64,000 nt of DNA. It comes from Nitrospira sp. Lineage in GTDB: Bacteria; Nitrospirota; Nitrospiria; Nitrospirales; Nitrospiraceae. Positions 1-7,030 of the stretch are shown piece after piece. Numbering within the stretch: position 1 is the stretch's first letter; every line of letters begins with the position of its first letter. The stretch lies in the NCBI GenBank assembly GCA_029194665.1, contig JARFXO010000004.1, positions 434,001 to 498,000 of the forward strand, read 5' to 3'. The notes below the pieces were generated by a model that was given only the letters and a program-made list of their open reading frames with translations, searched no databases and was not told the DNA's origin. The translations under genes and the position numbers were made by a program.

Positions 1-429
1 ACAAAACAGTGGTTGCTCGAAACCTTCATGCAGGAGGAACGTATCGGCTGGGACGATCCCTGGTTGGCCAGCCTGGACTTGGAGTATCACAATGTCGATC
101 CCGAGCAGGGGCTTTACCTGGGGTTGGAGGCAGAGGGGAAAGTTTGGCGGATGACGACAGACGAGGCAATTGACGAGGCGTTTCAGAACGGTCCGAGCGA
201 TACTCGTGCCGGGCTGCGTGGACTCTGCGTGCAGAAATTTTCGGATCAGATTAAGTCGATGCAGTGGGAGCGGATCCAGTTTGCGGGCGGGCTTGGCACC
301 CCTAATTTGGACATGGGGGACCTTTTTAATCCGCGGGAAGTCAGACGGTGTATGGACATCTTCCAACATGCCCATTCACCGGCTGATGCGCTGGCAACCT
401 GGAGCCGCAGAAAGGATATGGAGACATGA
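1..429 (+). CDS. dop: Dop/PafA-family protein, C-terminal part (Pup/UBact deamidase-depupylase or ligase)
   Basis: The reading frame is open from base 1, so the gene starts upstream of the window and only about 142 C-terminal residues are seen. The segment LDLEYHNVDPEQGLYLGL and the following RMTTD closely match the C-terminal part of the pafA product in this same window (LDLEYHNLNRAKGLYHGL, RMTTD), which places it in the Dop/PafA carboxylate-amine ligase-like family. In actinobacteria the copy directly upstream of pup is normally Dop, which deamidates or removes Pup, while the copy after prcA is PafA. By position this is therefore the Dop-like member. Its stop codon overlaps the start of the modifier gene (ATGA at 426-429), which implies translational coupling. 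The N-terminal catalytic half is outside the window, so Dop versus ligase cannot be decided from the sequence seen. Confidence 0.85.
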   Translation, partial: TKQWLLETFMQEERIGWDDPWLASLDLEYHNVDPEQGLYLGLEAEGKVWRMTTDEAIDEAFQNGPSDTRAGLRGLCVQKFSDQIKSMQWERIQFAGGLGTPNLDMGDLFNPREVRRCMDIFQHAHSPADALATWSRRKDMET

Positions 430-617
430 AACACAGCATGATGCCGGAACGGCGCGAGGGGCCGGTGGATCCCATGCCGAAATCTCCCAGCCCGGAAGAG
501 GGAAGTGGGCCACGCCGCCCGGACACGGGATCGCCGGACAAGGATATTCTGATGAAGCGGATGCGGAAAGTTGATCCCAAACAGGCGGAGCGGTATCGGC
601 AGAGGACAGGGGAGTAA
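426..617 (+). CDS. ubact: UBact/Pup-like small protein modifier
   Basis: A 63-residue, highly charged protein rich in Pro, Glu, Asp, Lys and Arg, with no predicted hydrophobic core, as expected for the intrinsically disordered Pup family. It ends in RQRTGE. The last residue is Glu, so its side-chain carboxylate could be joined to substrate lysines by a PafA-type ligase without prior deamidation; Pup itself ends in GGQ or GGE. It overlaps the Dop-like stop codon by ATGA and lies immediately before prcB. Pup-like modifiers with this gene order were described in Nitrospirae under the name UBact, and the length, C-terminus and context all fit. The identification rests on these features, because the protein is too short and biased for residue-by-residue certainty. 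Confidence 0.9.
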   Translation: MKHSMMPERREGPVDPMPKSPSPEEGSGPRRPDTGSPDKDILMKRMRKVDPKQAERYRQRTGE

Positions 618-705
618 CGTTAATCGTGAATCCTGAAATGTTGTAAAGACGGAACTCAATTTCCTGCGTTTGACGAATTTCGAGTAACGAATCACGGTGA
701 AAAGC

Positions 706-1479
706 ATGGGGATGCAGGGCGATTTCTATCAGCTCTTGAAAGAACAAGGATACGTGTTCGGATCGTCGGGACAGGCCGGCACAAAGCAGGAATTGACGAC
801 CGCCACAACCATCCTTGCCTTTAAGTATCGCGAAGGCGTTCTGGTCGCTGGAGATCGTCGCGCGACCGCCGGAAATATGGTGATGTACGACCGCACGGAC
901 AAGGTATTGGAGATCGACCAACATAGTGTTATGGCGATCGCCGGAGTGCCGGCGACCGCCTATGAAATGGCGCGCATCCTCGAACATTCTTTCAAGTATT
1001 ATCGGCGGACACAGCTCCAAGAGCTCAGCTTTGAGGGAAAGCTCCGGGCTCTCTCCAAATTGTTGAAGGAGAATGTCGCGGCAGCCTTAGCGGGGACCGG
1101 AGCCGTGGCCCCGATCTTTGCCGGTTACGATGCCGGGCAAGAGGCAGCGAAAATCTACTTTTACGATATTCTCGGCGCGGAGTTTGAGGGAGTGGAATTT
1201 GCGGTATCGGGGTCCGGTTCATCGACCATCCGAGGGATTCTTCATTACTTGAATACATGGGGCGATCAGCCGCTGAGTGCGATGTCGGAAGAGCAAGCAA
1301 CCGTTCAGGCGTTGCGACTGTTGACGAGTGCGGCAGAATTCGACAGCGCGACCGGCGGAGTCAACCGCGAAGCCGGTCTCTATCCGGTCATTAAGTTCAT
1401 CACCGCCGGCGATGTCAGAGTGATGCCGGATCTTCAGCTCCGATCGCTGTTTGAATCAAGGGTTGCTCGAAGCGTGTAA
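706..1479 (+). CDS. prcB: 20S proteasome beta subunit
   Basis: Catalytic subunit of the bacterial 20S proteasome core. A propeptide of about 33 residues precedes ATTILAFKYREGVLVAGDRR. By analogy with actinobacterial PrcB the mature protein starts at the first Thr of TTI, which is the N-terminal nucleophile, and the conserved VAGDRRAT segment with the Asp and basic residues of the active site follows. The C-terminal half contains YDILGAEFEG and the SGSGSS-type turn of Ntn hydrolases. ATG 706 is chosen because GGTGA lies 5-6 bases upstream; GTG 697 in the same frame is possible. It follows the modifier gene after about 80 bases and is 12 bases from prcA, so the two core subunits are probably co-translated. 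Confidence 0.95.
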   Translation: MGMQGDFYQLLKEQGYVFGSSGQAGTKQELTTATTILAFKYREGVLVAGDRRATAGNMVMYDRTDKVLEIDQHSVMAIAGVPATAYEMARILEHSFKYYRRTQLQELSFEGKLRALSKLLKENVAAALAGTGAVAPIFAGYDAGQEAAKIYFYDILGAEFEGVEFAVSGSGSSTIRGILHYLNTWGDQPLSAMSEEQATVQALRLLTSAAEFDSATGGVNREAGLYPVIKFITAGDVRVMPDLQLRSLFESRVARSV

Positions 1480-1491
1480 GGGGCATTAGTT

Positions 1492-2301
1492 ATGTATGAA
1501 GAGCCATATCGATGGGTGGAAGCAGTCGGAAATCGCCGGCAATATCTCGACAATCAGCTTAAGGAGGGGACACCCGTCGTCGGGGTCGCGTACGAGCGCG
1601 GCATTCTGCTCATGACAATGAGCAAAGGCACCTCCAAGTTATATGAGATTTACGATCGTTTAGCCCTCGGAGGTATGGGACACCCCGCCGACCTGGAGAA
1701 GCTGCGTTTCAATCTGCTGGAAATGGCTCATGTCGAAGGATTCAATCGCTCCGCTGCCGATGTGACCGGGAGCCGCCTGGTGAAGTACGGCATCGCGCCG
1801 GTCATCAAACAAGCGTTCGAAGAGGTGTTCAAAGCCCCCTTCATCGTGAAAATCCTGCTGGCAGAATTGAGCCGGAAAGCCGGGAGAGACGGTTTCTTGA
1901 CGATCAACTACGACGGGACATTTGAGGAAAAGAGCCGGTATGCGGTGCTCGCCGCAACGTCAGTGATAGAGCAGAGGATGATCGGATATGTCCGACAACA
2001 GTCCATCGTGTCACTGAAGGACGCTGTGGATGTGGCGATTCGTACGTGGGCGGTCGGTGATCGAGCGCAACGATCGGCACTGGAGGATGGCGAAGGCCAT
2101 CACGAAGCAATGGTCGCCACTGATCAGCAGGTCACTGACCCGGAGCCGCTCTATGCGCATGCGCGTCGGTGCATTGCCGAAAAGACGATCGAATGCGTCC
2201 TGCTTGATCGACAGGTGCAAGGACCATCCAAGTATCGAGCACTCGAGGCCGATGAGTTGGGAAGAGTGCTTCCAGAGCATTTGAACGCACCAATTTCGTG
2301 A
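1492..2301 (+). CDS. prcA: 20S proteasome alpha subunit
   Basis: Non-catalytic alpha-ring subunit of the proteasome core, 269 residues. The N-terminal YEEPYRWVEAVGNRRQYLDNQ helix and GTPVVGVAYERGILLMT resemble bacterial PrcA, where alpha subunits carry an N-terminal gate helix and lack the Thr nucleophile. The central SKLYEIYDRLALGGMGHPADLE matches the family segment that follows the first beta sheet. It sits directly behind prcB and four bases before pafA, the arrangement expected of a single proteasome operon. The C-terminal tail of about 60 residues, rich in charged residues, is not obviously conserved. No unfoldase (Mpa/ARC) is present in the window; it would be expected upstream of base 1. 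Confidence 0.92.
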   Translation: MYEEPYRWVEAVGNRRQYLDNQLKEGTPVVGVAYERGILLMTMSKGTSKLYEIYDRLALGGMGHPADLEKLRFNLLEMAHVEGFNRSAADVTGSRLVKYGIAPVIKQAFEEVFKAPFIVKILLAELSRKAGRDGFLTINYDGTFEEKSRYAVLAATSVIEQRMIGYVRQQSIVSLKDAVDVAIRTWAVGDRAQRSALEDGEGHHEAMVATDQQVTDPEPLYAHARRCIAEKTIECVLLDRQVQGPSKYRALEADELGRVLPEHLNAPIS

Positions 2302-2304
2302 TCC

Positions 2305-3792
2305 ATGGTAAACCGTATCTTCGGGTTGGAGACTGAATACGGGCTCTTGATTCACGAGGATCGTCCTGACCATTCACCGACCTGGTTTGCCCATAGGCTC
2401 CGCGACCAGCTGTTCCATGTCCAGCGGAGAGGTGTCCTCGACCTCCACCATCGTGGGCATGACGAGCCTCCCGGCAACGGGGGATTTCTCGTCAACGCCG
2501 GACGAATCTATTTGGACATGGGACATTTGGAGTACGCCTCGCCGGAATGTCATTCTCTCACCGATGTCGTGGCGTCCGATCGTGCGGGAGATCTCCTGCT
2601 GCAGCAAGCTCTCGAAGAGCTCGGCTTGTCAGAACAGGTGTCCTTGATCAAGAACAACATCGATCATGAAACCGACGCGACCTTCGGCTCGCATGAGAAC
2701 TATCTGGTATCTCGGCGGTTCCCTTTTTCGAGGCGAGGGCTGGCTCCGCTCGTGACGTTTCTGGTGACCCGGCAGATTTTTACCGGCTCCGGACGGGTCG
2801 GTTCCGCCGCTCCACAAGATGCCTGGATTCAGACGGATCGGTTGATCGTTCCACGTTCGGCGTTCGGTACGCACCAGGTATCGGATCTATCCTTTCAAAT
2901 CTCCCAACGTGCCGACTATATCGTGAACGATTTCTTCGAATGGGTGCAGCACAATCGGGCCATTGTGAACACGAGAGATGAACCGTTGGCCGATCCCAAT
3001 CAGTACCGTCGGATCCATCTGCTGCTGGGCGATTCCAACATGGCCGAATATGCGACGGCATTGAAGCTCGGAACGACAGGACTGGTGCTGCAGCTCATCG
3101 AAGAAGGACATGCGCCTCAGGATTTAGAGATCGACGAACCGGTGGAGGCGCTTCAAGAGATTTCTCAGGATCAAGAACGGCGCTGGTTGATTCAGTTGCA
3201 GTCTCAAAAAACGATGTCGGCTTTGGATATTCAAGAACGGTTTCTTGACTGTGCCGTTCAGCATTGCAAGGGGCAGGATGAAGAAACCGATTGGGTGCTT
3301 GCTCAATGGGCATCGGTGCTTCATGACCTGCGCGGCGATTATCAACAGCTCGTCGGGCGTGTCGACTGGGCGTCCAAACTGTGGTTGCTGGAATGCTTCC
3401 GCGAAGCGGAACATGTCGACTGGAGCGATCCCATGATGAAAAGTTTGGATTTGGAGTATCACAATTTGAATCGCGCGAAGGGGTTGTACCATGGATTATT
3501 GGAAGAGGGGCGCGCCCCTCGGATGACGACAGACCGCCTCATCCATCTTGCGATGGACACGGCCCCGAAAAACACGCGTGCCTACGGCCGCAGTGAACTG
3601 GTCAGACATCTCCTGAATGAGGGGTCTGCTTCAGCAGTGAATCGGGCTCCGTCGCCTGATGGATCGTTCCCTCCCTATGTCATCAACTGGTCGATTTTCC
3701 AAGTGCGCGGTCATGCCCCGTTTCCCATGCCGGATCCGTTCAAGACATATCTGGAAGATGTGCGGACCCACTTACAAAGCGTGATCGTGTAG
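2305..3792 (+). CDS. pafA: Pup/UBact-protein ligase (PafA family)
   Basis: ATP-dependent ligase that forms an isopeptide bond between the C-terminal Glu of the modifier and lysines of target proteins. At 495 residues it is close to the usual length. The N-terminus RIFGLETEYGLLI is the family's nucleotide/metal-binding signature, and IYLDMGHLEYASPECHS (about residue 70) contains the conserved Asp next to the glycine-rich turn, used as catalytic base in PafA/Dop. ENYLVSRR follows further on. It shares its C-terminal third with the truncated gene at base 1, so the locus encodes two paralogues flanking the modifier and core genes. The start ATG lies three bases after the prcA stop; no strong Shine-Dalgarno is visible, consistent with coupled translation. 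Confidence 0.92.
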   Translation: MVNRIFGLETEYGLLIHEDRPDHSPTWFAHRLRDQLFHVQRRGVLDLHHRGHDEPPGNGGFLVNAGRIYLDMGHLEYASPECHSLTDVVASDRAGDLLLQQALEELGLSEQVSLIKNNIDHETDATFGSHENYLVSRRFPFSRRGLAPLVTFLVTRQIFTGSGRVGSAAPQDAWIQTDRLIVPRSAFGTHQVSDLSFQISQRADYIVNDFFEWVQHNRAIVNTRDEPLADPNQYRRIHLLLGDSNMAEYATALKLGTTGLVLQLIEEGHAPQDLEIDEPVEALQEISQDQERRWLIQLQSQKTMSALDIQERFLDCAVQHCKGQDEETDWVLAQWASVLHDLRGDYQQLVGRVDWASKLWLLECFREAEHVDWSDPMMKSLDLEYHNLNRAKGLYHGLLEEGRAPRMTTDRLIHLAMDTAPKNTRAYGRSELVRHLLNEGSASAVNRAPSPDGSFPPYVINWSIFQVRGHAPFPMPDPFKTYLEDVRTHLQSVIV

Positions 3793-5919: not shown

Positions 5920-6060
5920 AAGGTGAACCCAGCCACGATGTTTAACAGGGAGTGTGTAACTTGGGCCACTCAAATGTCGAATGGGCTCCCCATCAGACTT
6001 CCTCGTGGTCCACGAGATCAGCGCCGGCATGCAGGTGCCCCGCGAGCCCGTGCAAGCGAC

Positions 6061-6759
6061 CTAAAAATGCCAGCCGATGCCTCCTACGGCGATGTAGGAA
6101 CGGTATTGCGCTTGCCCTCCCCCATCGGTTGATCCTATAGGCATGCTGTCATAATTATACTTCACTTGGTTGTATTTCCATTCTCCGAACAACGCAAGGT
6201 GGTCCGTCACCATCCATCGTAGGCCAGCCTTGGCAATAAAGCCCAGGGCCCCGTTGTCGCTTGACGATGTGTTAGTCTGAGCATCGTGGGTGTTGATAAA
6301 GTAGATCCCCAATCCACCCCCCGCGTACGGTTCCAATCGACCTATCTGGTAGCGGAACATGACGCTGAAAGGTGAAAAATTAGTGACTCGGACATCTTGC
6401 CCACGGGTAAGCTCGACGGTGGTGTTTCCTCCGTCATTGATCGTTACGGCTTGTTGCTTAATATTCGGTGTCGAAGTGAACACCTCCATCTCGACACCCA
6501 GCCATTTGAACCCTGGGTCGTCAAGATAATATCCGACCTTGCCCCCATAGAGGACCGAATTCTGAAGGCCGAGTTGCGAGAAGTCCAGGCCAGCAGCGTT
6601 ACCCGTCGTCCCTGCTATGTGACCGAAGTAGCCGTTAAAGGTGGCTCCAGCCTGCCCCGCCACATACCACTCGGCCTGGGCTGGGCTGCTGAACAGCACG
6701 AAGACCAGCATCACAACCGCAAGAGAATAGCGGACAATGGTACAGCACAATCCACTCAT
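6061..6759 (-). CDS. Outer-membrane beta-barrel protein
   Basis: 232 residues with a signal peptide (hydrophobic stretch VVMLVFVLF ending in SSPAQA before EWYVAGQ) followed by alternating strands such as WYVAGQAGATFNGYFG, VMFRYQIGRLEPYAGGGLGIYF and a terminal strand YIAVGGIGWHF that ends in Phe, the usual BamA recognition residue. This is the pattern of small 8-stranded OmpW/OmpA-like barrels. The function is unknown; the family often includes surface antigens and small porin-like proteins. It is encoded alone, with the palindromic element behind it and tRNA-Asn upstream. The stretch 6760-7030 upstream contains no supportable gene. Confidence 0.8.
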   Translation of the reverse strand: MSGLCCTIVRYSLAVVMLVFVLFSSPAQAEWYVAGQAGATFNGYFGHIAGTTGNAAGLDFSQLGLQNSVLYGGKVGYYLDDPGFKWLGVEMEVFTSTPNIKQQAVTINDGGNTTVELTRGQDVRVTNFSPFSVMFRYQIGRLEPYAGGGLGIYFINTHDAQTNTSSSDNGALGFIAKAGLRWMVTDHLALFGEWKYNQVKYNYDSMPIGSTDGGGQAQYRSYIAVGGIGWHF

Positions 6760-7030
6760 GTAGCACCCTTCTTTCTCCGGCGGTTCCGCCGGTGAGGATT
6801 CTCCTACCGACTCGTGGACGTGATTCTGCCCTAATGAGGATTGGGCAAAATGGCTGCACAGTTATAGTGGAGGGCTTCCTCGAAATCAAGCCACCTAGGT
6901 AAATTGTTGCGATCGAGATCAGACCGGACTTCGGTATCCGAACGCTTGAAGCGGCTGCTGAACCACGGCAACCCAACCGTGGACAGCCTGATAAGGATAC
7001 GAAATGGAGAGCTGTTTAGAAGAAAGGCAG

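Follow-up and report, generated by a model that had tools for sequence, protein, structure and literature searches.

Conjugation-proteasome loci built around the modifier UBact are reportedly found in Gram-negative bacteria, with a published case in Nitrospira. These loci combine the same modifier family with the gene order ARC-Dop-UBact-PrcB-PrcA-PafA, and the copy described here, from a 64,000-nucleotide stretch of a Nitrospira sp. genome (the whole of which we call the window), shows no essential difference from them. The same UBact locus is present in N. moscoviensis and Ca. N. defluvii (L168, L204; L numbers denote loci, G numbers genomes, G000 being the genome of the window, and C numbers contigs). 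The actinobacterial Pup-proteasome system has homologous enzymes and shares its gene order and catalytic residues with the window locus. Two pupylation systems, L1 and L2, have been described in Leptospirillum ferrooxidans (Barandun et al. 2012, PMC3511204), and according to a 2026 review every member of the Nitrospirales has just one alpha and one beta subunit. Here, we describe the window locus together with a second, canonical Pup system in the same genome, and compare the distribution, enzymes and ATPase tails of the two.

Results

The UBact operon

The operon lies on a single strand with tight spacing, in the order ARC1-Dop1-UBact-PrcB1-PrcA1-PafA1, and begins upstream of the window on the same contig. 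Its genes are as follows.

L004 7053-8816, same contig, upstream of the window: ARC1, an Mpa/ARC-type ATPase of 587 aa with OB domains (PF17758/PF16450) and AAA
L004 8903-10429, beginning at G000:C4:432903: the full dop1 gene, 508 aa (PF03136, E 4e-167 for the full protein)
Window 1-429, plus strand: 3′ part of dop1 (Dop-type deamidase/depupylase), the 5′ part lying upstream of the window
Window 426-617, plus strand: UBact modifier, 63 aa, ending ...RQRTGE (PF20513, E 6.3e-20)
Window 697-1479, plus strand: prcB1, proteasome beta subunit (PF00227, E 7.5e-26), with a start more likely at 706 than at 697 by comparison with relatives
Window 1492-2301, plus strand: prcA1, divergent proteasome alpha subunit (PF00227, E 4.6e-5, a weak match yet above the curated cut-off)
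Window 2305-3792, plus strand: pafA1, a Dop/PafA-family gene, presumed UBact ligase (PF03136, E 8e-130)

The positions and common plus strand of the five window genes are those given in the initial annotation, as is the ATGA in which the UBact start codon overlaps the dop1 stop; the gaps that follow are 79 (UBact-prcB1), 12 (prcB1-prcA1) and 3 bases (prcA1-pafA1). The Pfam matches of these genes are far above chance. The Mpa/ARC-type ATPase that the same annotation proposed to look for upstream of base 1 is present, and its best solved matches are Mycobacterium Mpa. The operon is complete once ARC1 and the 5′ part of dop1 are counted, and the identical gene set was found in 46/46 UBact loci read. 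Further upstream (L004 about 5940-7014, on G000:C4) lies a gene for an HtrA/DegP-type trypsin-like protease with PDZ and an apparent signal peptide, which ends about 38 bases 5′ of ARC1 on the same strand and may be co-transcribed with the operon.

Whether the modifier belongs to the Pup or the UBact family had been left to a comparison of profiles, and the Pfam scan identifies it as UBact: PF20513 is its sole family match, with none to Pup (PF05639). Across the 46 loci, UBact ends in TGE in 34 and in TGQ in 12, such that about a quarter of relatives with the same operon have a Gly-Gln end (e.g., L274 and L285). A removal or deamidation activity had been expected of the locus; Dop1 is indeed present, but deamidation is unneeded here since UBact is already Glu-ended in this genome. 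The deamidase step would be required only in some species, those in which UBact ends in Gln.

A second, canonical Pup system

A search of the same genome showed that contig C7 opens with a truncated PrcA followed by a third Pup_ligase gene (PafA2), and that contig C6 opens with the gene for a second proteasomal ATPase (ARC2). We interpret these contig-start genes as opposite ends of a single locus that is interrupted by a gap in the assembly. The order of this second locus in relatives is ARC2-Dop2-PrcB2-PrcA2-PafA2. Its modifier is encoded elsewhere.

L127 6749-6946, and G000:C6:51751-51939, same strand as ARC2: canonical pup, ending GGE (PF05639, E 1e-20), between hppA and recJ-rel

This gene is the only PF05639 match in the genome and lies about 50 kb upstream of ARC2 on C6, a layout that matches that of the single-contig relative G081. 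The flanking hppA (membrane pyrophosphatase) and recJ-rel genes accompany pup, contig permitting, in all Nitrospiraceae loci checked. We considered and rejected a modifier gene within the second locus itself, as the dop2-prcB2 gap of Nitrospirales measures 10-70 bases in nine loci, too short for pup, and the 408-base gap of G102 (L048 9361-9768) holds no Pup-like frame. Outside the order Nitrospirales, pup lies between dop2 and prcB2, suggesting that it probably left the operon in an ancestor of the order. PafA2 is 97% identical to PafA2 of the congener G102, and identity between the components of the two systems is 28-45%. The initial annotation was thus correct in seeing a Pup/UBact locus with both Dop/PafA paralogues, but overlooked a second, canonical Pup system.

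The Dop and PafA enzymes

The best solved matches of Dop1 score 382 bits for Dop and 286 for PafA. Dop1 retains the Dop-loop segment RWDYAGEDPHEDARGF and is also Dop-like around the catalytic Asp. PafA1 has no Dop-loop and carries a PafA-like C-terminal DPF motif; its sequence scores 254 bits against Dop and 214 against PafA, its AlphaFold model matches the Dop fold at Z 46.8 and the PafA fold at Z 42.9, and two otherwise conserved motifs are changed, HPEY to HLEY and DEPH to DEPL. PafA1 is divergent and overall closer to Dop than to PafA. Both ligase-family paralogues are in place, as had been claimed, and the ligase role of the downstream enzyme becomes a matter of architecture and elimination because PafA1 is nearer to Dop in sequence; on those grounds it is the presumed UBact ligase. 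Loss of catalytic Asp/Glu residues in either paralogue had been named as evidence against a working system, and alignment found these residues intact, including Glu9, Glu11 and Asp71 of PafA1. E9, E11, D71, H74, E76 and R224 (pafA1 numbering) are invariant across all four Dop/PafA enzyme clades.

In the Dop/PafA tree, PafA2 groups with actinobacterial PafA (99/98) and Dop2 with actinobacterial Dop (98/92), and PafA1 is joined with Dop1 (97/92). The tree would suggest an independent origin of the UBact-system pair, but we do not adopt this, as the topology that splits Dop from PafA is not rejected (p-AU 0.25) and the tree contains long branches. We also set aside an assignment of ligase and eraser by the alpha-loop. 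The AlphaFold model of PafA1 has no helix there, nor does that of the control PafA2, which renders the test uninformative.

The 20S core and the ATPase tails

PrcB1 matches actinobacterial beta subunits (E 2e-29) and retains the catalytic residues Thr1, Asp17 and Lys33 in 46/46 loci. PrcA1 matches Mycobacterium PrcA (E 2.4e-10), and its activator-pocket Lys is likewise retained in 46/46 loci. PrcA1 and PrcA2 share 28% identity over 145 aa and differ in their N-terminal segments. An extra proteasome-family gene, apart from both systems (G000:C1:1153117-1153626), is presumably HslV.

ARC1 ends in ...NQII and has no GQYL/HbYX docking motif with its penultimate Tyr. The Ile-Ile C-terminus is found in 72/72 non-redundant Nitrospirales ARC1 sequences, in which entropy is 0 at positions -1 and -2 and positions -3 to -6 are variable, whereas ARC2 ends in GHY[L/F] in 38/38. 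The Ile-Ile tail is not universal to ARC1, being limited to the order Nitrospirales; elsewhere the tails end in IE in Leptospirillia-like genomes (their identity is a guess) and in VI and PKN in two others. What all ARC1 tails read have in common is the absence of Tyr. The UBact-system ATPase of L286 (G227) apparently ends early (...GRYAPKN), without a hydrophobic tail, and this may be a truncation or a sequencing error.

The initial annotation had counted the lack of an upstream ATPase with a C-terminal proteasome-docking motif against its own reading. Taken literally, NQII falls on that side, as the Tyr-type motif is missing. However, because Ile-Ile is strictly conserved and the alpha-pocket Lys is retained, we interpret it as an alternative kind of docking tail rather than as evidence against the locus, suggesting that ARC1 docks through a Tyr-less C-terminus. 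Neither this ATPase tail nor a Dop-like PafA1 is described in the literature searched, the coverage of which did not extend to the founding UBact paper, and both appear to be properties of the UBact family.

Distribution of the two systems

About 102/147 sampled Nitrospiraceae have at least four Pup_ligase matches. Above the family cut-off, 132 genomes have a Pup match and 115 a UBact match. Among the 109 good genomes (completeness of 90% or more, contamination of 5% or less), 104 have Pup and 91 have UBact, and hence at least 86/109 encode both. Each of the 22 genera sampled has Pup, and 12 of them have UBact. Both loci are present in the single-contig relatives G001, G012, G030, G061, G081 and G102. 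The UBact system occurs by itself in G163 (single contig) and G065, and the Pup system by itself in G203 (single contig) and G234. The UBact system of G163 comes with a 20S of its own, and its ARC tail, which ends in IE, likewise has no Tyr, from which it follows that such a system can stand alone. Two systems in Nitrospira are not described in the literature searched, which did not cover the N. defluvii genome paper, and the single alpha and single beta subunit of the 2026 review are contradicted by the sequences.

Discussion

The gene content and order of the locus, its catalytic residues, the second system, and the ATPase tails with their conservation together make it probable that a complete UBact-proteasome pathway exists beside a largely separate canonical Pup pathway in one cell. 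From the sequences we infer conjugation, the direction in which each Dop/PafA enzyme works, the docking mode and the separateness of the pathways, as follows. The terminal Glu of UBact, at its Gly-Glu end, would be joined to substrate lysines by PafA1. Dop1 would act as the remover of UBact and, in relatives with a Gln-ended UBact, as its activator as well. The ARC1 ring would capture UBact-tagged proteins, unfold them and feed them to the PrcA1/PrcB1 20S core, with docking probably achieved when the Ile-Ile carboxylate meets the alpha-pocket lysine, and not by a Tyr-containing tail of the GQYL/HbYX type such as ARC2 retains. This pathway would run parallel to that of Pup, Dop2, PafA2, ARC2 and PrcA2/PrcB2, and the two would most likely exchange few components. 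Biochemical evidence for UBact conjugation was not found in the literature searched. On the broader proposal, that most Nitrospiraceae contain, in the same cytoplasm, two separate tag-unfoldase-proteasome machines, both equipped with a ligase, eraser, ATPase and 20S core of their own and kept apart partly by the new Tyr-less Ile-Ile tail, our judgment is evenly poised.

The separateness of the two pathways would be lost if the modifiers, ligases and ATPases of both all fed a shared or hybrid 20S, such that the UBact locus supplied mere tag and subunit variants of one mixed system. The two systems do co-occur in most genomes, both modifiers end in Glu here and would be compatible in the chemistry of their tips, and the pocket lysine is retained in both alpha subunits. 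However, all components diverge in parallel, PrcA1 and PrcA2 have little identity and unlike N-terminal segments, the ATPase tails differ absolutely between the systems, and each system has been found without the other; we therefore consider mixing unlikely. It is somewhat less likely still that UBact serves mainly as a reversible modification, with ARC1 unfolding or extracting tagged proteins without delivering them to a 20S, as has been proposed for ARC in proteasome-less corynebacteria. The Tyr docking motif is missing in every ARC1 copy read, and among actinobacteria the species devoid of proteasome genes have ATPases that lack this motif (PMC3511204), a precedent by which ARC1 might not dock. 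That inference is weakened because prcA1 and prcB1 always accompany ARC1 in the operon, with the catalytic residues, including Thr1, intact, unlike the situation in corynebacteria; moreover, the two C-terminal residues of ARC1 are invariant in Nitrospirales, as a working tail should be, and PrcA1 retains the alpha-pocket Lys. That the second system stems from contamination or a collapsed assembly, leaving UBact alone in the organism, might be imagined from a locus broken at two contig ends and a contamination estimate of 2.09% for the assembly, but this has next to no probability and is rejected in view of the complete single-contig relatives with both loci and by the shared gene order, in line with the near identity of PafA2 to that of G102 and the match of the C6 layout (pup, ARC2 and the hppA/recJ flanks) to G081.

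We thus favor two largely separate pathways, and Nitrospira with both systems would make it possible to test directly how the specificities of tag, ligase and proteasome stay apart. The UBact ATPase would, in addition, be a natural test of 20S opening without the HbYX tyrosine. Relative to described systems, the window locus is a further copy of one already known; what surprises is that the system is duplicated and that the ATPase tail has no Tyr, neither of which is described in the literature searched. This genome's second system falls with the actinobacterial Pup-proteasome, whereas the window locus differs from the latter in having UBact rather than Pup as its modifier, an ARC1 without GQYL, and strongly divergent PrcA1 and PafA1. 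The L1 and L2 systems of L. ferrooxidans are, like the Nitrospira pair, two whole systems alike in gene order and very different in sequence, and the L2 Pup lacks the terminal GGE, as does UBact (PMC3511204). The Nitrospira pair departs from that of L. ferrooxidans in the position of the canonical pup, which lies outside its operon in Nitrospirales and, in Nitrospiraceae, between hppA and recJ.
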